Shown here: positions 13,101 through 55,199 of the stretch, piece by piece
Layout of the letters: each line of letters begins with the position of its first letter
Position numbering within the stretch: the stretch's first letter is position 1
DNA from: an uncultured Bacteroidales bacterium
GTDB lineage: Bacteria; Bacteroidota; Bacteroidia; Bacteroidales; Muribaculaceae
Direction of reading: 5' to 3'
DNA: 64,000 bases
NCBI GenBank assembly: GCA_902786725.1
Contig: CADADP010000001.1
Span: 53,865 to 117,864, forward strand
Translations under genes and position numbers: made by a program
Notes under the pieces: model-generated
What the model saw: the letters and a program-made list of their open reading frames with translations, nothing else
Told to the model about the DNA's origin: nothing
The model's database searches: none

Positions 13101-13786
13101 ATAGTGTTTTCCACCTCCAACGAGCCAATCTTGGCGCGGGCACGCACCACGACAACACCAACTCCGGCAAGCATTACGGTATCCTTATATTCAGAGCCTT
13201 TCTTCACTTGCACCGTCACGGTTTCGCCACTGCCGGTTGCCGCCACATAGGCGGTGAGGTTACTGGTAGCCGAAATCACCTGTCCTTGTTTCACACTCTC
13301 CTGAACGGGATAGGTGGTTACCTGCAATGACTTTTTGCTCACGGTAAGTTTCAGGTTTGGCACGTCGAGCGTGAAAGAAAACACACCGGCCGGAAGGGCG
13401 AATGAACTCTGAGAGCCTTGCCTAATAGCCACAGGAGTGTCGAGGTGGCTGGAAATGTCTTCATTTGCGTCCCAGGCGCCATTTTGGGAGCCGAACCGCT
13501 TTTGTGCGCCATCGGCATTGAGCGAATCCCAGCTGTTGAGCTCTGTGGCAAACGCAAAATAATTAATTGAGTTTTGGCAATAGACAGTGGCCGTGAACTT
13601 TTGAGTCTCCGAGTTGTAGTTCATGGCCACGCCTTGGGTCGGATTCCAGTTAGTTTCCTTAAATTGGTTCACATTTCCAAGGATATACATAGTGGTCGGA
13701 TTCTGGGCCGATGCAATAAAAAATCCGAATACCACTGTCAATAGCAGAACCACACTACGCACTCTAACAATAAATTCTTTTCTCAT
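10172..13786 (-). CDS. Large secreted protein of unknown function
   Basis: 1204 residues with a clear signal peptide (hydrophobic 11-25, cleavage after ASA). The first 140 residues (MYILGNVNQF...WNPTQGVAM, repeated as short beta segments) resemble the SusE/F-type or Ig-like modules seen at the start of secreted Bacteroidales proteins. The middle is rich in beta-type repeats, with no catalytic motif I recognise. The last 60 residues (VYYNIQGMRSNTPFNGFNVV...) look like the short C-terminal tail shared by many secreted proteins of this order, perhaps a sorting domain. It is monocistronic with its own promoter (13883-13915), a 5' leader of about 90 nt and a hairpin at its end. Function unknown; a cell-surface or exported adhesive/binding protein is a guess. 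Confidence 0.8.
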   Translation of the reverse strand: MRKEFIVRVRSVVLLLTVVFGFFIASAQNPTTMYILGNVNQFKETNWNPTQGVAMNYNSETQKFTATVYCQNSINYFAFATELNSWDSLNADGAQKRFGSQNGAWDANEDISSHLDTPVAIRQGSQSSFALPAGVFSFTLDVPNLKLTVSKKSLQVTTYPVQESVKQGQVISATSNLTAYVAATGSGETVTVQVKKGSEYKDTVMLAGVGVVVVRARAKIGSLEVENTMGYNVIGRSPLDDKTYTWEDENGESHTSAYTDVATNPRQIMELLNAIYVDPEVPGAIQHREYKPDGTPWPVNEQTSETEVNYEAHSRQRYTWNPTSKTRTGLGARAPWIKCDGTVPQPNVDGATVLFIQIKDSWKAEDMDAYYSGGAMSNASAAEQTLQLITDAYESVQVITNTMRVEDETNPGTMLMINKVTTSRFYFISKGRVRAGGGSAPLYLAYEQLSPVQTNPGADMSDALNSGGVYNFVHDCHNVFRGDKGTGEYAGKYIPHYAQLSGFNSADLNDMEAKSLSNLTLFLPDKRFKRPDGVSSRPNGFLYNYSADENLTTSPKLLLYKAQLSAQRTPSSTEEYYDIKLDWSTWFDAEEIKANVVENFYVYAIDHNGNNIPLNEFIAANGDYDCDSQLPAPTTGHTYTFRVKQQQNRQTFDFIVIANPAGSEMLVKTNVAKVVIPGHDKFFLDGQEYRSRYSLNDECNIYKNKFRVYPNQDFSQIDCTPNRYEFYRIPAGGEPLLIATISFTKNGMTYDYTVNYVASTQNTSLTFDNSAVATTGVLTENGFMEIVDRFTASTVTNSQPESYTYFLGYGGGTGSSSNNYEVPVFKTDNHVTLGGFPLSDINSDTNHALEEDKEVVVSFHALMDLMQSIDRYDIHRVHSDDYHTNIGKVKQTIGNSMSVIGVNHASGHMSEDLGTIDTKESALVKVYDDLEYCPTPQPEYVTEIYARATAFNGQKVENHYGSDISGIQVPELHVDVLEKVRTEPQSIFMGYSAKLEFVPELVNSATHVYLYRTWRVEDDGSETLLNTTSADYEGITKYGADYDALFDTWPGNDAITINDVYYGRAFPRERVETVEVEEYDENGDPTGVTHQEVITIGGQRNVDYIVRMYSTRLDPSAVSSAPRHRAPGTDGAFYVTEKRVTVPYDYHNTITGIKQANVGEIPVVSTVYYNIQGMRSNTPFNGFNVVARTLANGMVIYEKAILRQ

Positions 13787-37662: not shown

Positions 37663-38053
37663 TCTTGGTGCCTTTGGGAATGGTTACGCCCTCAATGATA
37701 AGCGTGCTGAACTGCTCGCGCCCGTTGGTCTTCACGCGCACCGACTTGCTGAATCCTCCGGGACGCCCTATCGGGTTGTAGGTCACCTTGATTTTACCCT
37801 TCTTGCCCGGCTTGATGGGCTTGGTGGGGTATTCGGGGCGAGTGCACCCGCACGAAGCCACTGCCTCAACTATGATTAGCGGCTTGTTGCCGGTGTTGGT
37901 GAATTCAAACGTATGTGTCACAGGACCTTTCATCTCCTGTATCTGCCCAAAGTCGTGACGCTTCTCGGTGAAGGTGGCCTGGGCATACTTATCCTCGGCG
38001 AAGCCTGCGATGGCCGCAACGAGCATAATGGTGAGCGTTAGTATCTTTTTCAT
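37652..38053 (-). CDS. DUF1573-family exported protein (single domain)
   Basis: 133 residues: signal peptide (cleavage after GFA), then one DUF1573 module with EKRHDFGQIQEMKGPVTHTF, EAVASCGCTRPEYPTKP and KPGKKGKIKVTYNPIGRPG. The CGC motif matches the one in the coupled downstream protein. First gene of the DUF1573-DUF1573-meaB unit, with a perfect promoter at 38141-38174. Molecular role unknown. Confidence 0.88.
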   Translation of the reverse strand: MKKILTLTIMLVAAIAGFAEDKYAQATFTEKRHDFGQIQEMKGPVTHTFEFTNTGNKPLIIVEAVASCGCTRPEYPTKPIKPGKKGKIKVTYNPIGRPGGFSKSVRVKTNGREQFSTLIIEGVTIPKGTKSDE

Positions 38054-38140
38054 TGTTGTTAAGATGTTTATCAGTTTCAGTTTTACTTTTTTTTCAGTGA
38101 TGAATGCTATGATTCTTGAATGCTACAATTTTTTAATGAT

Positions 38141-38174
38141 GCAAATTTAATCAAAATCCGTGCGATTGACCAAA
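38141..38174 (-). promoter_or_regulatory. Promoter of the DUF1573-meaB unit
   Basis: Minus strand: TTTG (38174-38171), 21 nt, TAAATTTGC (38149-38141); full consensus. Confidence 0.75.
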
Positions 38175-38311
38175 CAAAGTGTGTTTTAATGCGATAAAAG
38201 TTCTTAAAATCCCCTTAAATCTTTTTAGATTTCCTCCTCCGCCTGCGTCCCCGGCAGGGTCCGGTGCCAGCCACCGTGTAACCGGCAGATTTATAGAGCA
38301 CAAACCCCGCC

Positions 38312-38447
38312 CTTGCCAAATCTAAACCACAACTTTAGATTTGCCCACCTCCTTGAAAATCTGCAATTTTTTCCTGTTATTTGTTTGAAGTTTGGGATAG
38401 TTTTGCTATATTTGCCAAAAATAAAGTACAACTTTAGATTTGGCAAG
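38312..38447. repeat. Perfect 15-bp inverted repeats flanking the ATPase/cas13b promoter
   Basis: CTTGCCAAATCTAAA (38312-38326) and TTTAGATTTGGCAAG (38433-38447) are exact reverse complements. A third near-copy, TTTAGATTTGCC, lies at 38334-38345 and can pair with the first as a short hairpin. The promoter 38384-38415 lies between them. They look like operator half-sites; the cognate protein is unknown. Confidence 0.65.
38384..38415 (+). promoter_or_regulatory. Promoter of the ATPase-cas13b unit
   Basis: TTTG (38384-38387), 19 nt, TATATTTGC (38407-38415); full consensus, about 48 nt before the ATPase start. I find no promoter in the 25-nt gap before cas13b. Confidence 0.75.
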
Positions 38448-38462
38448 TAATCAACTAACATT

Positions 38463-39644
38463 ATGTATAACAGAAAGATAGAGGATGAACTTTTGCGACT
38501 GAAGGGCTTATTTAGGGTGGTGACGGTAACAGGACCGCGCCAGTCGGGCAAAACCACGCTTGTGAAGCACGCTTTCCCCGACTACACCTACGTGAATCTT
38601 GAAGACGAGGCTGTGATTTCAGAACTGCAATTGAATCGAAAAGCATTTCTGGAACACCATTGCACCGGATTAATTATCGATGAAGTGCAACGTATGCCGG
38701 AGCTTATAAGCGCAGTGCAGGTAGTGGTGGATGAGACCTCCGGAGCCAGCGTGGTGCTGACAGGTAGCAACAACCTGCAGCTTATGCAACGTGTAACACA
38801 ATCGCTTGCCGGACGAACGGCCGTGCTCACCTTGCTTCCTCTATCGATTGAAGAACTCACCGGGAACGACCGTTTGCTATCGTGTTTTAAACTGATGTAT
38901 AACGGATTCTATCCCGCTGTATGGGCCCAAAATCTGCCGGCGCAAGACATGTATCGCCAGTACTTTAACACCTACATTCAGCGCGATATACGCCAAGTGC
39001 TTAACGTTAAAAATCTGGATGAATTCAGGAAATTTCTGGTAATTGCGGCTTCGCGAATAGGGACAGAATTCAACGCTCAAAGCATTTCCAACGAACTTGG
39101 TGTGTCGCTACCCACTGTGCTGGAATGGATGAATGTACTGGAGGCCACCTACGTGGCGTTCCGTCTGCGCCCGTTCTACCGTAACATAGGCAAGCGACTG
39201 ATAAAGACTCCCAAGATCTACTTCTACGACGTGGGCCTGGTATGTTACTTGCTGGGTATTACCAAGCCGAGCCAACTCGAAACACATCCACTGCGCGGAC
39301 AAGTGTTCGAGAACATGGTGGTATGTGAATTTATTAAGTATCAATTCAATAGAGGACGCGACAACGACATCTACTTTTTCCGTGACCGCAGCCAGCGCGA
39401 AGTGGATATAGTGATTGACCGCGGCCTCGACGAGTTGCACGCGTTTGAAGTGAAATTAGCCTCAACCATTCACCCTGATTTCTACAACAACCTAAAATAT
39501 TTCCGCAGTCTTTTTACCGACCAAACTCGCACCACACAAGTAATAAACACCGGTGCTTCAAGTGTTTACAGCCCTGAAACCGGTCACATAAACTTTTGGG
39601 ACATACCCACCACCCTCACCCGTATCGAGGACACAACCCACTGA
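38463..39644 (+). CDS. AAA-type ATPase with DUF4143 C-terminal domain
   Basis: 393 residues. Walker A GPRQSGKT (24-31) and a Walker B type stretch GLIIDEVQRMPEL (about 73-85) are followed by VVLTGSNNLQLMQRVTQSLAGR (sensor region). The C-terminal DUF4143 part includes an HTH-like stretch (SISNELGVSLPTVLEWMNVLEATYVAFRLRPF) and a possible nuclease-like core (YFFRDRSQREVDIVIDRG, with D/E...VD pattern). Such ATPases are common in Bacteroidales and mostly uncharacterised. It ends 25 nt before cas13b in the same direction and has the only promoter found, so it is likely co-transcribed with cas13b. Whether it takes part in CRISPR function is open. Confidence 0.85.
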   Translation: MYNRKIEDELLRLKGLFRVVTVTGPRQSGKTTLVKHAFPDYTYVNLEDEAVISELQLNRKAFLEHHCTGLIIDEVQRMPELISAVQVVVDETSGASVVLTGSNNLQLMQRVTQSLAGRTAVLTLLPLSIEELTGNDRLLSCFKLMYNGFYPAVWAQNLPAQDMYRQYFNTYIQRDIRQVLNVKNLDEFRKFLVIAASRIGTEFNAQSISNELGVSLPTVLEWMNVLEATYVAFRLRPFYRNIGKRLIKTPKIYFYDVGLVCYLLGITKPSQLETHPLRGQVFENMVVCEFIKYQFNRGRDNDIYFFRDRSQREVDIVIDRGLDELHAFEVKLASTIHPDFYNNLKYFRSLFTDQTRTTQVINTGASSVYSPETGHINFWDIPTTLTRIEDTTH

Positions 39645-39669
39645 AAAAATGACATAAAAAAGATTTACT

Positions 39670-42600
39670 ATGGTTGAAATAACAAATAATAAAAACGTGT
39701 ACGCAGCCTTTTCTAATATGGCTCAAGATAATCTGTATATGGTGTTTAACCACATTCTTAAATGCTTAGGAAAGAATGCCGAAAATAATGCAGCAGATAA
39801 AATTCTGCAGACTTTCGCTTCAAAAAAGGTAAACGAAAAGGCCAAGGCAATAGATTTGCTTAATCGGCATTTACCTTTCATGGAGCCACTTGTGGCCAGC
39901 GTCATGGACAAAAAGGGCAACAACTTCTCGTTACCCGAAGCATATGCTTACGTAATAAAAAGAATCGTTGAGATTGCGCGTTTCTATAGGAACTACACCA
40001 CCCATTATGATTCTGACGAAAGCGGTGAAATCCTAAATCTTAACAGTTATGAAGGAAGCATGTGCCATGGCCTTAACGAATTATTTAAAGCTAGCATACG
40101 GGTGGTACGTCAGCGATATGGATACACTGAAGACGATGTGAAATTTGTGGCAAATAGGGGCAAGGCACCGGGGAATGAAAAATCTTACAAGTACTTCCTG
40201 CACAAAACAGTGACTTCGGCAGCAAATAGCACACAAAGAAAAGAATTTTCACTAAAGGGGCTTGTCTTTTTCTTGTGTCTGCTACTGGAGAAAAAATACA
40301 TCAGCGAATTTCTGGATAAGACAAAGGCGTTTTATACATATCAGGATTTAACCAATCCTAAGCGCAAGAGTATATTACTAGAGTCAATAGCAGTGTATAG
40401 GGTGAAACTTCCACGTAAACGTTATGACAGTGAGACAAGTTTAACGGTGTTGGCATTAGACATAATGAATGAGCTACAACGGTGCCCTCGCGAGTTATTT
40501 GACATACTTTCTCCTGCCGACCAGAAATTATTTCGTAGCGTAAAAGGAGACGAGAATGGCGAGTCGGTGCTGATGATGCGCAGTAGCGACCGGTTCCCCA
40601 CACTGGCAATGAGATGGATTGACCTATGCGAAACGTTCAAGCAGATACGTTTCCAAATCAACTTAGGAAAATACAGGTTTGCTTTCTACAATAAGAGATG
40701 TATAAAATATGGCGAGGACAACGGAGTTCAAGTTCGCTCTTTAGAAAAAGAGCTACATGGATTTGGCCGGCTTGATAACATTGAGAAGGAGCGTCGAGAA
40801 AAATGGGCTACTCTGATCAGGGAATATGATGAAGTGCGCGAGGACACTGCCGATTCTGTGCCGTATATTACCGACCATCGCGCTTCATATCTCATAAGCA
40901 ACAATCGAGTGGGGCTTTACTGGAAAGCATCGGTCACCGATCCGTTCCCGGGATTGCCTCAACTCTCTACGACCCCACAGGCCAGAGATTTGCGAGAACG
41001 AAAAAAAGCCGGTGAAAAGCTCGCATCGCTCGCCACTCCAAAATGTTTCCTAAGTGTGCATGAGTTGCCGCCACTCGTATTTTACACTATGCTATTCAAA
41101 CAAGCCGCCCCATCCGTGCTGCAAAAATCCGGTGCTATTTCAGCTGAGGCAATAATAATGCGGTGGGTAAAGAATTTCCACTCGTTTATTGACGGCGTGC
41201 TATCCGGCGAAATCAGCAAAGATAATTGTGAAGATAAGGCAGCAAACCTCGGAATTGATTATAAGAGGCATTTACCAAAAAAACTTCAGGAATTTATATC
41301 GGGCTCAGGCGCTGACGAGCAAGTACTTAATAAGCGCTTGCGCGACAGGTTAGACAAGCATATCGCCGATACCGAGCGGCGTATCGAGCGCCATAGGCGC
41401 GACGCTGAGCGCCAAGCCGACGAAGCCAACAAGCGTGGAAAGAAAAACTTTGTAGAGATAAAGCCCGGGCGATTAGGCTCATGGCTGGCTCACGACATGA
41501 TAGCTATGCAGCCACAACCTCGGGGCGGAGAGAACAAGTTGACCGGGCTCAATTTCCAGATATTGCAGTCGGCATTATCGATGTTCGACAACTTGGAGAA
41601 TATGCGACAAGTACTGATTAGCGCGCGCCTGATAGGGAGTTCATATTCTCATCCATTCTTGGAGAAAGTACTTAACAAGCAACCTCGTAATACAATAGAA
41701 TTATATAAAATCTATCTTGACGAGAAAGTCGCTTGGCTACGAAGTCTAAAACCAGAAGAGATACGAGCACTTGGATTCATTACTCGTGGCACGGACAAGT
41801 GGTCGGTCCGGGACGAGGAATATTACAAGCGTGTACTGCTGCGATATAAGACAATGCCCGTGGAACTACCACGAGGCTTGTTCTCGCAAGCTATTAAAAA
41901 ATTATTGTCGGAGCAATTTGGCCCCAGTTTTGTAAAGGGTGAGACACGCGATGAAGCTAATGTATCGTTCCTTGTGTCGAAGTATTTTAGAGATAAATGC
42001 AATGACGACAGTCAGGAGTTTTACACTCAACCTAACGGCACGTATAAGCGTTATTACACCTTCTTTAGGTTACTTGCCGGCGCACCCACGCTAAAATCGG
42101 TACCGGAATATGGAAAGATTGTTACTGAAATTGACGCTTTCTTGAAGAGTGACCCATCGCTGGATTTGTTGTTAACGAAACAGCACGCTGATGTCGCCAC
42201 CGCTCAACCCACATTTGACTTAAGCCGAGAAATAGAGGAGGTGAATATTAAACTCGTTAAGGCTAAGGCCAAGAATCCCAACCTTGACGTGGCAAAACGA
42301 ATAGAAGAAATTATAAGCTCATCCATGAAGCTTAAGTCATTATCACCTGCTCAGAAGATGCAACTTATGAGCAAATTCCTCGGCAAAAACGTCGCATCAG
42401 CGCAGAATCAGCCACGACTGGTAGAGAAATATCTCAACGGGATAGAGAAATCGGAGAGAGAGCAAGAAAAGGTGAAATTATCGCGTACGTTGCGCCTCAT
42501 GAAGGAAACCGAGCGATTAATAAGAAACTATAGGGTGACGGATATTTTGCTTTTTCTCATGGCCCGTAACATTCTGTTTGCGGAAGACGAGATGCCAAGT

Positions 42601-43260
42601 GATGCCGCCGTGAAACATTTTAAATTGAGCGAAATCAGGCCCATTAGGCGGCAAGATGGTGTGGGCACACTTGAAATAAAGATTCCGTTCTCAATCACGC
42701 TTCACATTAAGGGAAGCAACGTGCCGGTAAGAATCACACAAGACTCGATAAAACTTAAAAACTATGGAGACTTCCAAAAGTTCCTTTATGACACCCGCCT
42801 CGAAACCTTAATTCCATATTTGGTTGATGACGAGAATGCCGTAAGGATTGATGTGAGCAAAGCCGAACTCGACGACGAATTCGCAAAATACGATACGGCA
42901 CGAATTGAAGTGTTCGCAAATGTACATAAGATTGAACGCCTTATCTTAGAGCGGCATTCCGAGTTGAAAGACAAAACATCGGCAAGCTACTACTATCAGG
43001 AAAATGGCAAGAATCTTCCTGTGCGTGGAAATTTTGGCAAGATGCTCAGTTACGACAAGCGTTATGCTGACGAAGAGCAGTCTGAGATGGTTAACATACG
43101 TAATTCATTCTCTCATAATTCATACCGAGGAGATGGTTTTGGGAACGTTAACATATCCACGAGCAAAGTGGGAGAGATTGCACCTGCGATTAAAGGCAAA
43201 CTTAAAAATAAAGCCGACCAAATTTCAGCTGACGCGAAAAAAGACAATGTTCAAAACTAA
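39670..43260 (+). CDS. cas13b: Cas13b, type VI-B CRISPR RNA-guided RNase
   Basis: 1196 residues, within the usual 1100-1250 of Cas13b. Two HEPN catalytic motifs sit near the two ends, the layout specific to Cas13b: R107-NYTT-H112 (in IARFYRNYTTHYDSDE) and R1144-NSFS-H1149 (in VNIRNSFSHNSYRG). Both Arg and His are intact, so RNase activity is expected. The middle has long Lys/Arg-rich helices as in the lid and linker domains (RLRDRLDKHIADTERRIERHRRDAE, split here by its repeats, about 555-580). The crRNA array begins 57 nt after the stop. No csx27/csx28 and no cas1/cas2 are nearby. The gene is visibly AT-richer than its neighbours, suggesting transfer. The protein would bind a crRNA with a 3' repeat handle, cleave target RNA and perhaps bystander RNA. 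Confidence 0.95.
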   Translation: MVEITNNKNVYAAFSNMAQDNLYMVFNHILKCLGKNAENNAADKILQTFASKKVNEKAKAIDLLNRHLPFMEPLVASVMDKKGNNFSLPEAYAYVIKRIVEIARFYRNYTTHYDSDESGEILNLNSYEGSMCHGLNELFKASIRVVRQRYGYTEDDVKFVANRGKAPGNEKSYKYFLHKTVTSAANSTQRKEFSLKGLVFFLCLLLEKKYISEFLDKTKAFYTYQDLTNPKRKSILLESIAVYRVKLPRKRYDSETSLTVLALDIMNELQRCPRELFDILSPADQKLFRSVKGDENGESVLMMRSSDRFPTLAMRWIDLCETFKQIRFQINLGKYRFAFYNKRCIKYGEDNGVQVRSLEKELHGFGRLDNIEKERREKWATLIREYDEVREDTADSVPYITDHRASYLISNNRVGLYWKASVTDPFPGLPQLSTTPQARDLRERKKAGEKLASLATPKCFLSVHELPPLVFYTMLFKQAAPSVLQKSGAISAEAIIMRWVKNFHSFIDGVLSGEISKDNCEDKAANLGIDYKRHLPKKLQEFISGSGADEQVLNKRLRDRLDKHIADTERRIERHRRDAERQADEANKRGKKNFVEIKPGRLGSWLAHDMIAMQPQPRGGENKLTGLNFQILQSALSMFDNLENMRQVLISARLIGSSYSHPFLEKVLNKQPRNTIELYKIYLDEKVAWLRSLKPEEIRALGFITRGTDKWSVRDEEYYKRVLLRYKTMPVELPRGLFSQAIKKLLSEQFGPSFVKGETRDEANVSFLVSKYFRDKCNDDSQEFYTQPNGTYKRYYTFFRLLAGAPTLKSVPEYGKIVTEIDAFLKSDPSLDLLLTKQHADVATAQPTFDLSREIEEVNIKLVKAKAKNPNLDVAKRIEEIISSSMKLKSLSPAQKMQLMSKFLGKNVASAQNQPRLVEKYLNGIEKSEREQEKVKLSRTLRLMKETERLIRNYRVTDILLFLMARNILFAEDEMPSDAAVKHFKLSEIRPIRRQDGVGTLEIKIPFSITLHIKGSNVPVRITQDSIKLKNYGDFQKFLYDTRLETLIPYLVDDENAVRIDVSKAELDDEFAKYDTARIEVFANVHKIERLILERHSELKDKTSASYYYQENGKNLPVRGNFGKMLSYDKRYADEEQSEMVNIRNSFSHNSYRGDGFGNVNISTSKVGEIAPAIKGKLKNKADQISADAKKDNVQN

Positions 43261-43317
43261 ATATTAGTGATGAAAAATTTAGTAACAAACTCAGAAGCAG
43301 GAATATAAAGCAATGCA
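43261..43317 (+). promoter_or_regulatory. Short leader between cas13b and the CRISPR array
   Basis: 57 AT-rich bases with no TAnnTTTG element. The array may be read through from cas13b or use a non-consensus promoter. Confidence 0.4.
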
Positions 43318-43750
43318 GTTGTGGAAGCCCTCATTTTAGAGGGTAATTACAACAAACTGAAAACCTGTAAATTACACGTTTTTGTTGTGGAAGCCCTCAT
43401 TTTAGAGGGTAATTACAACTATGAGTAATTGCGTTAACAGTGTGTTGTCGTTGTGGAAGCCCTCATTTTAGAGGGTAATTACAACTTTATTCTTTTGTAT
43501 TCATCCCAACCCATGGTTGTGGAAGCCCTCATTTTAGAGGGTAATTACAACCTAGTTTCTTGGCAGAACTCCTGTTCAGTTGTTGTGGAAGCCCTCATTT
43601 TAGAGGGTAATTACAACCGCTAATAGATTTTTAATTGCTTGTCTGAGGTTGTGGAAGCCCTCATTTTAGAGGGTAATTACAACTTCTTCAATTCGTAACG
43701 CTTAACGCCTTCAGGTTGTGGAAGCCCTCATTTTAGAGGGTAATTACAAC
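43318..43750 (+). CRISPR. Type VI-B CRISPR array, 7 repeats and 6 spacers
   Basis: Seven identical 36-nt repeats begin at 43318, 43384, 43450, 43516, 43582, 43648 and 43715. Spacers are 30, 30, 30, 30, 30 and 31 nt. The repeat starts GTTGTGGAAG and ends TAATTACAAC. Its core CCCTC-ATTTTA-GAGGG is a 5-bp stem with a 6-nt loop, and the GTTGT/ACAAC ends are also complementary. This is the known VI-B repeat form (GTTG...ACAAC, 36 nt). In that orientation the crRNA is read on the plus strand with the spacer 5' of the repeat. No repeat is degenerate, not even the last, and no two spacers are alike. Confidence 0.98.
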
Positions 43751-44128
43751 TAATTATTCACGCTAACTCAGTTGTGCGGATGTCTCTTAGGTTGATAGAG
43801 CGTCCGTACATTTGCCATCACCATATCTCATTGGCAAATAATTTGTGAAGCATTTGCGCACATTGGTGTTTATAGTCACCCATATCGCCATCCGCTGTCA
43901 TTTGTGGTATAACTTCCGCGCTATCCACCTCACGTCAGCAACGCATTATCAATTATCGTTCGACGACTGATTTTCAGCAACATGATACGCTATAATGGTT
44001 ATTTTGTGGGGTAATTGCGGATAAATCGAAAAATTTTTCTTAAATTTGTGAAATCTCGGAAATGGAATTATCAACATCATTACATTCAAAACCCGGTGAC
44101 TAAAAAACTCTAAAACTGAAATTCAAAT
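43751..44128. other. Gene-free stretch after the CRISPR array
   Basis: 378 bases with no reading frame of note on either strand. A weak hairpin GTGCGGA...TCCGTAC (43774-43810) follows the last repeat and may end the array transcript. A -7 element TAAATTTGT at 44041-44049 may serve the phosphatase genes, though its -33 (ATTG) is 23 nt away. Confidence 0.5.
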
Positions 44129-45433
44129 TTGCTTATGCTGATTAAACGTTTATTGCTGATTTTGTGGGCCGTGGTGCCACTGCTCTCGGGAGCCGCCACG
44201 CTCGATGACTTTGCGGCCAACCCGTGTAAGAGCGGCGGCTGCCTCTACGCATACCCCTACCCTGCCGAGCCGCTGCCGACGCTGACACCGGCCCCGGAGG
44301 GCTACGAGCCGTTCTACATCGACCACTACGGCCGCCACGGCAGCCGCTGGCTCATTGAGCCGGGCGACTACGTGAAGCCGGTGCGTCTGCTCGAGCGGCT
44401 GGATAGCGCCAACCTGCTCACCGCGCTGGGTAAGCGCACCCTGACCGACCTGCGCCGGTGGCAAGAGCAGTCGGAGAAGCGCCTGGGCGAACTCACCGAC
44501 ATCGGCGCCGAGCAGCACCAGGGCATAGCGGCGCGAATGTTCCGCAACTTCCCGCAGGTGTTCGGCGGGCGCGACAAGACTGTGCGCGCACGCTCGTCGG
44601 TGGTGATTCGCTGCATCCTCTCGATGATTGCCGAGACATCTACGCTCAAGGCTTGCAACCCAGGGCTGAACATCCTCACCGACGCCAGCCAGGCGGATAT
44701 GAAAACGATAGCCCACGGCTCGGCGCAGGAAAAACTGGGCAAGCTCAAGGAAGAGGCTCGCAAGCAGATTCCGCCGGGCCTGTATCACGTGGACTGGCCG
44801 ACGTTTTCCAAGCAACTGATGCTCGACAACGACCTGCTCTCAGACCACGAGAAGAGTTACCTGATGCACCTGCTGCGCCAGGTTGCCGTGTCGCTACAGA
44901 ACCACAAGACCGACTACTCGCTCTTTCAGCTGTTTACCACCGACGACCTGTTCAGCATGTGGGCCAACGATAACATTCACACCTACCTGAGCTTTGGCAA
45001 CTCGCCGCAGGCCCGCAATATGATGCCCTACGCGCAGGCCCACCTCTTGCGCGAGATGATAGCCACTGCCGACGATGTGATTGCCCACGGAGGCCGTGTC
45101 GCCGACCTGCGTTTCGGTCACGACGTGGTGCTTATTACGCTTGCCACACTGATGGAACTGGACCACTTCAACGTGAGCCTTGACAACCTGGCCGACGTGG
45201 CCGAGCAGTGGCGCAACTACGACATCTTCCCGATGGCATGCAACATTCAGATGGTGTTCTACCGCCCTGTGGGTGGCGCTGCCGGCGACGTGCTGGTGAA
45301 GGTGCTTATCAACGAGCATGAGGCGCAGCTGCCCGTGGGGCAAGACACAGCCCCCTACTGCCGCTGGGCCGACCTCAAGCACTACTACGAGAACAAACTG
45401 GAACTGATGGATAAAGAATACGAAAAACTCTAA
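44129..45433 (+). CDS. Histidine-type phosphatase, MINPP-like, paralogue 1
   Basis: 434 residues with a signal peptide (cleavage near SGAAT). Branch-2 histidine phosphatase motifs: HYGRHGSRW with R69-H70-G71 (nucleophile His 70) and RFGHDVV with H331-D332 (proton donor Asp). The family covers inositol-polyphosphate phosphatases (phytases, MINPP) and acid phosphatases, usually periplasmic or surface-exposed. Two related genes follow at once, 8 nt and about 30 nt apart. This copy alone has HD in the donor motif. Substrate (phytate or another phosphate ester) is not provable from sequence. Confidence 0.85.
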   Translation: MLMLIKRLLLILWAVVPLLSGAATLDDFAANPCKSGGCLYAYPYPAEPLPTLTPAPEGYEPFYIDHYGRHGSRWLIEPGDYVKPVRLLERLDSANLLTALGKRTLTDLRRWQEQSEKRLGELTDIGAEQHQGIAARMFRNFPQVFGGRDKTVRARSSVVIRCILSMIAETSTLKACNPGLNILTDASQADMKTIAHGSAQEKLGKLKEEARKQIPPGLYHVDWPTFSKQLMLDNDLLSDHEKSYLMHLLRQVAVSLQNHKTDYSLFQLFTTDDLFSMWANDNIHTYLSFGNSPQARNMMPYAQAHLLREMIATADDVIAHGGRVADLRFGHDVVLITLATLMELDHFNVSLDNLADVAEQWRNYDIFPMACNIQMVFYRPVGGAAGDVLVKVLINEHEAQLPVGQDTAPYCRWADLKHYYENKLELMDKEYEKL

Positions 45434-45441
45434 GTATCATT

Positions 45442-46767
45442 ATGAAAAGAATAATAGCCACACTGGCTCTGAGCCTTGCGCTGACCGCCGTGGCCGGCGC
45501 GCAGACGTTCACATACACCACCACGGCCCGCCAAGAGATTGCCGCCAACAAGCCTCTTTGCGCCAATAACTATCACGCATATCCCGATGCCCAGTTGCCC
45601 GAGCTCACTCCGGCCCCTGAGGGCTACGAGCCGTTTTTCATCGACCACTACGGCCGTCACGGCAGCCGATGGCTACACATGAGCAGAATGTATGATGTGC
45701 CGCTGGCAGCTCTGGAGAAGGCCGCCAAACTGGGCCAACTCACCAAGCGCGGCAAGCGACTGCTCGACACCTATCGCATCATGGCCATGAAGTCGCGCGG
45801 ACGCGAGGGCGAGCTGAGCGACGTGGGTGCCGAGCAGCATCAGCGCATAGGCCGCCGCATGACACGTAACTTCCCGCAGGTGTTCCGCGGAGCGGCACAG
45901 GTCGATGCCAAATCAACCGTGGTGGGACGCTGCATCCTCTCGATGCAGAACGAGGTGGACCAGATTAAGGCGTTTAACCCCGGCATCAACCTCACCATCG
46001 ACGCCAGCGAGCACGATATGTACTTCATGAACAACTGGCGCGACAAGGCCATCAACCCCCTGCGCGACTCGGTGGCACACCTGCACCGCGACTTCTTCGC
46101 CGCCCACATCAACCCCGACAAGTTTCTCAAGCGCATTTTCAGCGCCAAGTACGCGCGCGACAGCATCAAAGACAAGAAGCAACTGATGCTGTGGATATTT
46201 GACGGTGTGGGCAATATGCAAAGCCACCACGCGTTTGACGACCGCGACGAGTGGGACCTCTTTACCGCCGAAGAATGCTACCGCCTGTGGCAATACAACA
46301 ACGTGTATTGGTACCTGATTGACGGCTCGGCACCGGCCAACCACAACCGTATCGTATATTTCAACTCCAACCTGCTGCTCGACTTCATAGAGAAGGCCGA
46401 CGACGCCATTATCACCGGCCGGAATGGGGCCGCGCTGCGTTTCGGGCACGAGTCGGTGCTGCTGCCGCTGGTGTGCCTGATGGGCATTAACGGGGCCGAC
46501 TACCAGACCACCGACCTGGAAACGCTCGACAATCACTGGCGCTCCTACGACATCTTCCCGATGGCATGCAACGTGCAACTGGTGCTATACCGCCCCACAG
46601 GGGGCGCCCGGGGCGACATCCTGGTGAAAGCGCTACTCAACGAGCGCGAGGCCACACTGCCCATCGCCACCGACCGATTCCCCTACTACCGCTGGGCCGA
46701 CCTGCGCACTTATTACATCAACAAACTGTGTAACCGCCCCATTGTGAACCCCGACTTTGAGAAATAA
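45442..46767 (+). CDS. Histidine-type phosphatase, MINPP-like, paralogue 2
   Basis: 441 residues with a signal peptide (MKRIIATLALSLALTAVAGA). The RHG motif is R72-H73-G74 in DHYGRHGSRW; the donor motif is RFGHESV with H336-E337, so Glu replaces the Asp of paralogue 1. It aligns with its neighbours through the ELTPAPEGYEPFFIDHYGR opening, the GAEQHQRIGRRMTRNFPQVF stretch and the NNHWRSYDIFPMACNVQ-type block near 365. Starts 8 nt after paralogue 1. Confidence 0.85.
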   Translation: MKRIIATLALSLALTAVAGAQTFTYTTTARQEIAANKPLCANNYHAYPDAQLPELTPAPEGYEPFFIDHYGRHGSRWLHMSRMYDVPLAALEKAAKLGQLTKRGKRLLDTYRIMAMKSRGREGELSDVGAEQHQRIGRRMTRNFPQVFRGAAQVDAKSTVVGRCILSMQNEVDQIKAFNPGINLTIDASEHDMYFMNNWRDKAINPLRDSVAHLHRDFFAAHINPDKFLKRIFSAKYARDSIKDKKQLMLWIFDGVGNMQSHHAFDDRDEWDLFTAEECYRLWQYNNVYWYLIDGSAPANHNRIVYFNSNLLLDFIEKADDAIITGRNGAALRFGHESVLLPLVCLMGINGADYQTTDLETLDNHWRSYDIFPMACNVQLVLYRPTGGARGDILVKALLNEREATLPIATDRFPYYRWADLRTYYINKLCNRPIVNPDFEK

Positions 46768-46798
46768 CAACCAATCAATTAACAACGAACTTTGCCAT

Positions 46799-48109
46799 AT
46801 GAGACGAATCATTATCACATCGCTGCTGGTGGTGGCGATGACGGCGATGGCAACGGCCACTTCGCCACGCGACGAGATTGCGGCGCGACTCACACGCAGC
46901 GCCAGCAACCATTACAACTATCCATACCCCGAACTGCCCATGCCCACGCTCACGCCGGCACCGGCCGGCTACGAGCCGTTCCACATTGAGCATTACGGCC
47001 GCCACGGCAGCCGGTGGTCAACCAGCATGTCCACCTACACGCGGCCTGTGAAGGAGATGGAAAAGGCCGAGCGAAACCACCAGCTCACCGACGTGGGCCG
47101 CGCCACGCTGGCCACTCTGCGAGCCATCCGCGACGCCGCGCAAGGCCGCGAAGGAGAGCTGAGCGATGTGGGTGCCGAGCAGCACCGCGGCATAGCCGAG
47201 CGCATGTTCCGCAACTTTCCGCAAGTCTTCAGCGGCGACGCGCAAATCGACGCCCGCTCCACGATAATCGTGCGCTGCATCCTTTCGATGCTCAACGAGA
47301 CACAGACCCTGCAGGGACTCAATCCGCAACTGCGCATCACGGCCGACGCGTCGGTCTATGATATGCCCTACATGGGCTGGGGCTACGGCGAGGACACTTG
47401 CGCCAACAAACTGCGCGCACGCATGAAACTGATTAGCGACAGTGTGAAAATGGCTTGGAACAATGCCGACCGCTTCGCCGCCCAACTCTTTATCGACCCC
47501 GGCTTTGTGGCCGACAGCATCAGGGCTAAGTCGCTTATGCTCGACGTGTTTGACGTGGCCGGCGGACTGCAGGACATCCACCGCTTTGACTCCACCGACC
47601 TCTACCACCTCTTCACCACCGACGAAATCTACAACCTGTGGCGAGCCAACAACGTGAAGTGGTATGTCAACTGGGGTCCGTCCCCGGCCAACGGCTCACG
47701 CCTGCCGTTTATTGAGCGCGCTCTGCTTGCCAATATCATCCGGACCGCCGACGAGGCTATCGCCACCGGCCGCCGGGGAGCGGCGCTGCGATTCGGGCAC
47801 GAGACGTGTGTGCTGCCCCTGGCCTGCCTGCTCGAGATTGACGACGTGAACCTGCACACTACCGACCTCGACAACCTGCACAACCTGTGGCGCTGCTACG
47901 ACATCATACCCATGGCCTGCAACATCCAGATGGTGTTCTACCGCCCGACAGACCGGACGCAGGCCGATGACGTGCTGGTGAAAGTGCTCTTTAACGAGCA
48001 TGAGGCGCGACTGCCCATCGCCACCGACCGGTTCCCCTATTACCGCTGGACCGACGTGAAGCCCTATTACGAGCAGAAACTTCGCACCGTGATTGACTGG
48101 ACAAACTAA
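46799..48109 (+). CDS. Histidine-type phosphatase, MINPP-like, paralogue 3
   Basis: 436 residues from the ATG at 46799. The in-frame ATG at 46757 overlaps paralogue 2 and would spoil the signal peptide, which starts MRRIIITSLLVVAMTAMATA. RHG motif R68-H69-G70 in EHYGRHGSRW; donor motif RFGHETC with H334-E335. Same architecture as the two upstream genes, so the trio arose by tandem duplication. It ends before a hairpin at 48157-48199 and the convergent slyD-like gene. Confidence 0.85.
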   Translation: MRRIIITSLLVVAMTAMATATSPRDEIAARLTRSASNHYNYPYPELPMPTLTPAPAGYEPFHIEHYGRHGSRWSTSMSTYTRPVKEMEKAERNHQLTDVGRATLATLRAIRDAAQGREGELSDVGAEQHRGIAERMFRNFPQVFSGDAQIDARSTIIVRCILSMLNETQTLQGLNPQLRITADASVYDMPYMGWGYGEDTCANKLRARMKLISDSVKMAWNNADRFAAQLFIDPGFVADSIRAKSLMLDVFDVAGGLQDIHRFDSTDLYHLFTTDEIYNLWRANNVKWYVNWGPSPANGSRLPFIERALLANIIRTADEAIATGRRGAALRFGHETCVLPLACLLEIDDVNLHTTDLDNLHNLWRCYDIIPMACNIQMVFYRPTDRTQADDVLVKVLFNEHEARLPIATDRFPYYRWTDVKPYYEQKLRTVIDWTN

Positions 48110-53009: not shown

Positions 53010-55199
53010 ATGAGAAAAATAATTATGCTTTCAGTCATTTCGGCCACAATGGCACTCGCCGCACAGGCACAAATCACTTATCCCAAGGCGGCACGAGTAG
53101 ATACAGTAGATCACTACTTCGGCACCGCAGTGCCCGACCCTTACCGCTGGCTCGAGGACGACAACAGCCCGGAAACCGAGCAATGGGTGAAACAGGAGAA
53201 CCTTGTAACACAGAACTATCTCAAGAAAATCCCGTTTCGTGAAGCAGTGAAAAAACGCATCACCGAACTCGCCAACTACGAAAAAATGGGAATCCCATTC
53301 CAGGTTAACGACAAAATCTACTTCTTCCGCAACAACGGGTTGCAGAACCAGTCAGTTCTGTACTGCGTGGACGAGGACTTCGTGAACGACATAGAGCCGG
53401 GCAACTTTCTCAAGGGCAGCAAGAAAGTGAAACTGAGCGAACTCAACCTCGCCACCTGCAAGACGAAAGTGGTCCTCGACCCCAACAAGCTGTCGGACGA
53501 CGGCACAGTGGCCCTGCAACAACTCAACTTCTCGCACGACGGCCGATATCTGGCCTACGTGATAACGCGCAACGGCAGCGACTGGAACGAGATCTTTGTC
53601 CTCGACCTCATAACCGGTGAGACACTTCCCGACCACATCACCTGGGCCAAGTTCACCGATGCCCAGTGGCTCGGCGACGGTTTCTTCTACAGCGCCTACG
53701 ATGCCCCCGAAGACGCCAAGTCGTCGAAGAACGAGTTCCACAAGGTCTTTTATCACAAGCTCGGCACAATACAGTCGCAAGACTACATAGAGTATCAGAG
53801 CCACACCAACCCACTCTTGTTCTACCAGGCCTCGGTGAGCGAAGATGAGCGATACGTGTTCATGTGGGAAAGCGACGGCGACGGCAACATCCTTTACGTC
53901 AAGGACCTGAAAGACCGCAATCCGCATTACGTGCGCCTCACGTCGAACATGAAGTTCACCGCCAATCCCATCGGTGTGGACAATGGCAAAATCTACGTCC
54001 ACACCAACCAAGACGCGCCATGCTGGAAAATCATCGCCTTCGATGCCGCCAACCTCAGCACCAGCAACGTCACCGAGTTCATTCCCGAAAAGGATTATGT
54101 GCTGGCAAGCGCACAAATGGCCGGGCACAAGTTTATCCTCAACTACGAGCGCGACGCATCGTCGCACCCGTATCTCTACGACGAGAACGGCCACGTAATC
54201 TGCGAAATCAAGTTGCCCACATTCGGCTCGGCGGCGTTCTCTTCAAAACGCGACAAAAACCTGGTGTATTACAACTTCACGTCCTACACCTTCCCCACCT
54301 CGATTTATCGCTTCGACCTCGACACCCACACCAGCCAGCCGGCGTTCGCGCCCAAAGTGAAACTCAACCCCGCCGACTACATCACCGAGCAAGTGTTCTA
54401 CCCCAGCAAGGACGGGACCAAGATTCCCATGTTCCTCATCTATCGCAAGGGACTCAAGCGCGACGGCAAGCGGCCCGTATTCCTCTATGGCTACGGCGGT
54501 TTCAACATCTCCATGACCCCCGGATTCTCGTATAGCCGCACGCCCTTTGCCATGCTCGACATGGGCGGCATCTGCGCCTACACCAACCTGCGCGGAGGCG
54601 GCGAATATGGAGAGAAGTGGCACGAAGCAGGAACGAAACTGCAGAAACAGAACGTGTTCGACGACTTTATCGCAGCCGCCGAATACCTCATCAGCGAGGG
54701 CTATACCTGTCCGGCCAAGCTTGCCTGCAACGGAGGCAGCAACGGAGGCCTACTCGTGGGCGCCGTGGTGAATCAGCGCCCCGACCTCTGGGCGGCCGCT
54801 GTGCCTCAAGTGGGCGTGATGGATATGCTTCGCTACCAGTACTTCACCATCGGTTGGAACTGGGCTCACGACTATGGACGAAGCGATGACAGTCCCGAGA
54901 TGTTCCGATACCTCAAGGCCTACTCGCCCTTGCACAACATCAGCAACGACGGCACACGCTACCCGGCAATCATGGTCACCACCGGCGACCACGACGACCG
55001 TGTGGTGCCGGCCCACTCGTTCAAGTATGCCGCCACGCTCCAGGCCAGCGACACAGGCAAGGCGCCCAAGCTTATCCGCATCGACTCCAAGGCCGGACAC
55101 GGGCACAGCAAGCCCATTTCCAAGATAATCGACGAATACACCGACATTCAGTCGTTTATCATGTATAACCTGGGAGTGAACTACAAGCCTCGCAAGTAA
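53010..55199 (+). CDS. Prolyl oligopeptidase, family S9A
   Basis: 729 residues including a signal peptide (cleavage after AQA, residue 20), so it is exported. The N-terminal signature YPKAARVDTVDHYFGTAVPDPYRWLED and a seven-bladed propeller (about 90-440) precede the alpha/beta hydrolase. Catalytic triad: S577 in GGSNGG, D662 in GDHDDRVVP and H697 in GHGHSK. It cleaves short peptides after proline. Together with the upstream M28 protein it may form a peptide-processing pair. Confidence 0.95.
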   Translation: MRKIIMLSVISATMALAAQAQITYPKAARVDTVDHYFGTAVPDPYRWLEDDNSPETEQWVKQENLVTQNYLKKIPFREAVKKRITELANYEKMGIPFQVNDKIYFFRNNGLQNQSVLYCVDEDFVNDIEPGNFLKGSKKVKLSELNLATCKTKVVLDPNKLSDDGTVALQQLNFSHDGRYLAYVITRNGSDWNEIFVLDLITGETLPDHITWAKFTDAQWLGDGFFYSAYDAPEDAKSSKNEFHKVFYHKLGTIQSQDYIEYQSHTNPLLFYQASVSEDERYVFMWESDGDGNILYVKDLKDRNPHYVRLTSNMKFTANPIGVDNGKIYVHTNQDAPCWKIIAFDAANLSTSNVTEFIPEKDYVLASAQMAGHKFILNYERDASSHPYLYDENGHVICEIKLPTFGSAAFSSKRDKNLVYYNFTSYTFPTSIYRFDLDTHTSQPAFAPKVKLNPADYITEQVFYPSKDGTKIPMFLIYRKGLKRDGKRPVFLYGYGGFNISMTPGFSYSRTPFAMLDMGGICAYTNLRGGGEYGEKWHEAGTKLQKQNVFDDFIAAAEYLISEGYTCPAKLACNGGSNGGLLVGAVVNQRPDLWAAAVPQVGVMDMLRYQYFTIGWNWAHDYGRSDDSPEMFRYLKAYSPLHNISNDGTRYPAIMVTTGDHDDRVVPAHSFKYAATLQASDTGKAPKLIRIDSKAGHGHSKPISKIIDEYTDIQSFIMYNLGVNYKPRK

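Follow-up and report, generated by a model that had tools for sequence, protein, structure and literature searches.

Type VI-B CRISPR systems are usually split by which of two membrane proteins, Csx27 or Csx28, accompanies the effector Cas13b. What, then, is to be made of a Cas13b gene that has neither beside it, and no adaptation genes either? Just such a locus lies in the genome of an uncultured Bacteroidales bacterium of the family Muribaculaceae (GenBank assembly GCA_902786725.1, G000 in our numbering). The window, by which we mean the whole 64,000-nucleotide stretch that was analyzed, runs from position 53,865 to 117,864 of contig CADADP010000001.1. Our answer is that cas13b and the CRISPR array behind it are likely to be a complete, interference-only type VI-B system, carried on a small acquired island and acting with neither Csx27 nor Csx28 nor the CorA-like protein that sister lineages encode beside their Cas13b. 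The window is thereby a well-delimited VI-B example for which neither a recognized membrane partner nor adaptation genes were found.

The Cas13b gene and its array

The cas13b gene runs from 39670 to 43260 on the forward strand and encodes a protein of 1196 residues, with RxxxxH motifs at residues 107–112 and 1144–1149. An earlier note on this DNA, made from the letters alone, had called the protein Cas13b and the locus type VI-B, and family profiles agree on both counts: the open reading frame (ORF) matches NCBIfam VI_Cas13b (NF038190) with 649 bits, where the cut-off is 150, and PADLOC scores it as Cas13b (E 2.4e-172). Its best solved chain is PspCas13b (8wf8, E 9.4e-102). The two HEPN motifs lie near the protein's two ends, as they do in type VI-B effectors, and R107, H112, R1144 and H1149 are invariant in all 10 of the Cas13b proteins aligned. 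Compared with the two nearest relatives, the gene differs at codon positions 1, 2 and 3 by 0.365, 0.277 and 0.657 (L042, 53% identical at the protein level) and by 0.388, 0.295 and 0.642 (L043, 50% identical). This excess of substitutions at third positions fits a gene under constraint.

The array, at 43318–43750 on the forward strand, consists of seven identical 36-nucleotide (nt) repeats and six spacers of 30, 30, 30, 30, 30 and 31 nt. Chance is excluded as the source of seven identical 36-mers with a period of 66–67 nt, and linked repeats of about 36 nt with spacers of about 30 nt are what a type VI-B array should have. The first repeat begins 57 nt after the cas13b stop codon. The position of the array and the identity of its repeats were both as the earlier note had described them, as was its observation that the catalytic motifs and every repeat are intact. 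A search of the whole assembly allowing up to three mismatches found the window's seven repeats and no other copies. The repeat folds as a single hairpin (-15 kcal/mol, z -4.4) and is nearly identical to those of L042 and L043, whose arrays the window's resembles.

Between gene and array lies a 57-nt leader (43261–43317, forward strand). Leader RNA that opens the hairpin of the first repeat has been reported, in the accessible text of PMC13187072, for the VI-B2 system of Porphyromonas gingivalis. The window differs in prediction, its leader leaving the repeat closed: the computed probability that all repeat pairs are open is 0.000 whether the leader is taken as 57, 100 or 180 nt, an observed value of 0 that makes the shuffled-leader control uninformative. 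A leader–repeat hairpin to control the array is predicted absent in the window and in L042. The prediction for L043 has the repeat neither open nor intact, and the strongly open result for L050, obtained with a repeat clipped to 33 nt, is not relied on. If the window's leader does leave the first repeat closed, it could yield an extra guide.

Missing partners and a small island

The assembly measures 2.38 Mb in 73 contigs and is 88.39% complete. Searched across all of it, the Csx27 and Csx28 profiles gave no match at E ≤ 1, the CorA profile none at E ≤ 0.1 and the Cas1 search none at E ≤ 1. At the locus there is no csx27, csx28, cas1 or CorA-like gene, and no ORF of at least 60 residues is contained entirely in the stretch from the cas13b stop codon to position 44128. 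The earlier note's picture of a minimal locus without csx27, csx28 or adaptation genes therefore stands, for the locus and for as much of the genome as was assembled. The CorA negative is calibrated, since the same profile recovered four of the five Cas13b-adjacent CorA-like genes among 12 genomes searched, missing that of G190. Cas1 matched in 12 of the 24 Cas13b-bearing genomes tested (one of six within the window's genus), so its absence from G000 is not unusual. Weak Csx27 and Csx28 matches in relatives (E 0.05–0.8, some with internal stops) were taken as chance; at loose limits, the named control genomes match the Csx28, Csx27 and CorA profiles in 3, 8 and 11 cases out of 14.

How does the locus compare with other Cas13b loci? 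Of the genomes sampled in the family, G000 among them, 12 of 397 have the gene; counting only matches that pass the curated cut-off, the class has it in 4 of 395 sampled genomes and the order in 15 of 393. Our partner census assembled 51 loci, of which L135 and L166 have no Cas13b frame. The remaining 49 divide into 15 with a CorA-like gene, four with Csx27, three with Csx28 and 27 with none of these, proportions that lean towards the window's relatives because many of the loci were found by a scan from the window's own protein. Five with Cas13b frames shorter than 900 residues (L071, L072, L161, L163 and L164) were dropped from the tree, leaving 44 rows: 15 CorA-like, four Csx27, three Csx28 and 22 without a recognized partner. 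One row, L165, sits on a very long branch and scores 76 bits, below the family cut-off.

Placing the window's Cas13b on a tree, as the earlier note had proposed, puts it in a branch of 30 rows (support 87/93, below the tool's star level), 15 of them CorA-like and 15 without a partner, with neither Csx27 nor Csx28 among them. The four Csx27 rows sit in a separate branch of eight (support 92/85). Closest to the window are L042 and L043, neither of them with a partner (clade support 100/100), and next to these three comes L046 (99/96), whose CorA-like gene lies 3 nt from Cas13b. The CorA label needs at least seven changes on the tree, and not one of 500 shuffles was as low. Going by the tree, the best reading is that the window's lineage either lost a CorA-like partner or never had one.

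Two other features of the census deserve mention. A contig from IMG/VR, of putative viral origin, carries Csx27, Cas13b and a VI-B-like array (L073, 7234–12579). WYL-like genes lie near Cas13b, on varying strands, in L043 (237–1268), L070 (11329–12414), L050 (8312–9493) and L066 (5180–6130), with domain matches run for those of L043 and L070; the L043 gene shares the strand of Cas13b and precedes it by 111 nt.

The window's system sits on an island of about 6 kb, whose gene-level extent is 38054–44128. Measured per 500 nt from 38000 to 44000, its G+C content is 0.38–0.51, and that of both flanks is 0.51–0.62. We compared the site with 13 congener stretches fetched around DUF1573 genes. In one of these, L112 from G406, the gene order is that of the window: MeaB (86% identical), a pair of DUF1573 genes and a trio of histidine-phosphatase-like genes (64–72% identical). 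Neither DUF4143 nor Cas13b finds a match there, and the start codons of the two genes that bracket the site, one DUF1573 and one phosphatase, are 190 nt apart in L112 versus 6075 nt in the window. By this comparison, the DUF4143 gene, cas13b and array are an insertion relative to L112, although L112 has diverged too far between its genes for the junctions to be placed to the base. The other 12 stretches match the DUF1573 genes (nine also MeaB) and not the phosphatase genes, and so give no information on the site. What the empty site tells us is that the VI-B system differs between relatives as one small island.

Of the genes around cas13b, the DUF4143 ATPase gene (38463–39644, forward strand; PF13635 and AAA_14 matches) ends 25 nt upstream of it on the same strand. 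Downstream of the island, three tandem genes of one family occupy 44129–48109, in the same order in L112. The earlier note had named a DUF4143 ATPase and histidine phosphatases as the flanking genes. The first of these identifications is sound; the second has behind it a weak His_Phos_2 match to the first gene of the trio (E 0.0012, below the cut-off). Two 31-nt direct repeats, 87% identical (38313–38343 and 38412–38442), precede the DUF4143 gene and are possibly regulatory.

CorA-like genes beside Cas13b

It is the CorA-like branch, more than the window's own locus, that is the more interesting lead. Fifteen loci carry the gene (L044, L046, L048, L049, L051, L052, L053, L058, L059, L062, L064, L065, L067, L069 and L158), and in 12 of them it is on the same strand as cas13b and either overlaps it or lies within 75 nt. 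It is on the other strand in L051 (455 nt away) and L158 (958 nt away), and 1009 nt downstream of cas13b in L069. The proteins are 428–575 residues long (438 in L158). Fourteen of the genes were the seeds of two census profiles, having been grouped by BLAST beforehand; L158 was found by profile.

How good is the case for CorA? PADLOC covered 12 of the 15 genes, five of them through the same contig under another identifier, with L049, L069 and L158 outside its coverage. Nine of the 12 match its CorA profile (E 8e-15 to 1e-4), and L046, L048 and L058 do not. Pfam scans of five of the genes returned only sub-cut-off matches to unrelated families. Two sub-families, A2 (six rows) and A3 (eight rows), align to one another by hhalign at 94% (E 1.2e-7, 299 columns), the control of A2 against Cas13b giving 0.2%. 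Structure models of A2 and A3 (mean pLDDT 68.7 and 82.5) finish in predicted long helices, and in Foldseek searches of the PDB, CorA or ZntB chains take the top 11 places for the A2 model and the top 5 for the A3 model. The best E values are 1.7e-3 for A2 and 2.1e-2 for A3, none reaching 0.001, and the TM-scores are low, so that a CorA fold is supported, not proven. By sequence, the A2 profile matched no solved chain at E ≤ 1, nor the type III-like CorA of G072 (L080) at E ≤ 0.01. A hydropathy scan found mostly two transmembrane segments, with one in L044 and three in L065 and L069.

CorA is discussed alongside type III systems in the accessible text of the 2025 classification and of the SAM-AMP paper. 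No report of a Cas13b/CorA-like pairing was found in the literature searched, whose scope was openly accessible text, and the CorA-like helper of the window's close kin may be undescribed. The idea we draw from all this is a tentative one, with the balance tipped slightly against it: that there is a third large Bacteroidales branch of VI-B, in which a CorA-like accessory protein, akin to the CorA effectors known from type III systems, couples Cas13b activation to a CorA-like channel. The window's lineage would then have split off from that branch as a stand-alone line, and would offer a natural experiment on the partner's contribution. If the CorA-like gene does encode an effector, Cas13b would have taken on a third kind of membrane protein, and setting the partner-less enzyme of the window against its sister from L046 could test how RNA cutting is linked to membrane damage.

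Some of these loci have further company. In four (L048 at 13245–13715, L049, L053 and L069), a gene of 156–196 residues follows the CorA-like gene; that of L048 has no Pfam or PADLOC match. In Dysgonomonas sp. 511 (L051, 745–10299), a reverse transcriptase (RT)-Cas1 fusion, Cas2, the CorA-like gene and Cas13b share a 10.8-kb contig, which also has 13 VI-B-like repeats of 35 nt. In the accessible text of a 2019 survey of 236 Cas13b, linked RT-Cas1 was seen only with Cas13a (PMC6753606).

Reading the locus among known VI-B systems

To judge from its sequence, the window's locus probably encodes a maintained and active RNA-guided RNase that has no dedicated membrane effector. By analogy with studied systems, cas13b and the downstream array are probably co-transcribed, and Cas13b would cut the precursor CRISPR RNA into spacer-repeat guides. 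A guide would pair with a matching phage or plasmid transcript, whereupon the two HEPN motifs would come together as an RNase that cleaves bystander RNA as well as the target, and the infected cell would shut down. Neither Csx27 nor Csx28 nor the sister lineages' CorA-like protein would take part. As no adaptation genes and no cas1 were found, the six spacers would have been acquired earlier, in trans, or along with the island. It speaks for such self-sufficiency that L042 and L043 likewise have no partner beside Cas13b and have kept their arrays.

Several points weigh against it. L042 has only 388 nt downstream of Cas13b and L043 only 1378 nt upstream, and of the 15 partner-less rows of the branch, four have less than 500 nt on one side (L042 downstream; L047, L057 and L060 upstream). 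The Csx27 and Csx28 negatives are uncalibrated, there being no known positive in those searches, and a divergent CorA-like gene could escape a profile that missed the one in G190. With the assembly incomplete and in pieces, a partner or cas1 may simply be missing from it. The spacers, too, give no help: none of the six has an exact match in IMG/VR, the one match among phages is at chance level (E 2), and the array search matched none in plasmids.

Could a partner, CorA-like or some other membrane protein, act in trans, encoded at another place in the genome or in its unassembled part? We think this unlikely, if well short of far-fetched. The completeness figure leaves room for it, the sister row L046 has its CorA-like gene right beside Cas13b, and A3-type genes distant from Cas13b do exist in the congeners G307 and G319 (L081 and L083); since the Cas13b of G319 has no adjacent partner, action in trans is possible there. 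Yet no CorA, Csx27 or Csx28 profile matched in the window's assembly, L042 and L043 have no CorA-like gene beside Cas13b, and placement in trans would be unusual for a gene that is so often immediately next to cas13b on the same strand. Decay is a less likely story still. A recently silenced remnant, its frame intact and either unexpressed or without useful spacers, would explain a short array, the missing cas1 and the spacers without exact viral matches, but most real targets escape a search that looks for exact matches in a single viral collection, and a full-length frame, invariant motifs, seven identical repeats and the third-position excess against both nearest relatives all argue against decay.

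The earlier note had also raised the idea of a different partner, and the obvious candidate is the DUF4143 ATPase. It sits just upstream of cas13b on the same strand, in what could be an operon, both genes are on the island missing from L112, and its best PADLOC match is a family named PDC-S01. As a partner we rejected it, and rate the idea as very improbable, because the linkage is not repeated at other Cas13b loci: none of those examined has an adjacent DUF4143 gene, and weaker matches occur in two only (L156 and L162), 2.4–4.2 kb away. The window's genome has a second copy, scoring above the cut-off, at another place. The DUF4143 gene is therefore treated as a fellow traveller that probably rides on the island. 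The different-partner idea thus fails for the window's neighbors and fits half of the branch, where the CorA-like gene is found.

Partner-less VI-B loci have been described before. The VI-B locus of Flavobacterium columnare, in the accessible text of PMC8092290, encodes only Cas13b, with no adaptation genes, csx27 or csx28; this partner-less locus acquires spacers, the Cas1 of a II-C system serving the VI-B array in trans. Like the window's locus, it is Cas13b plus array and nothing more, although in the window's assembly no Cas1 was found; the F. columnare Cas13b is outside our tree. The accessible text of PMC8209922 adds that Csx27 is an inconsistent feature of VI-B1 and Csx28 a universal one of VI-B2, and that in most hosts of a VI-B system cas1 and cas2 are present at a further locus. 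The F. columnare precedent, the inconsistency of Csx27 and the 22 partner-less rows in our tree together leave the novelty of the earlier note's stand-alone variant unsupported; the stand-alone reading itself holds within the incomplete assembly.

With type VI-B2, represented by P. gingivalis AJW4 (PMC13187072, accessible text), the window shares the effector family, 36-nt repeats and 30-nt spacers; VI-B2 has Csx28, which matched neither at the locus nor in the assembly. With type VI-B1 it shares the effector family and its two HEPN motifs, but VI-B1 has Csx27, for which the assembly gave no match, and the window lies outside the branch that holds the Csx27 rows. There are also the CorA-like loci (L046, L044, L064 and others): their gene is absent from the locus and was not found in the assembly, and still the window's Cas13b falls inside their 30-row branch, which the usual division of VI-B into Csx27 and Csx28 systems leaves uncovered.

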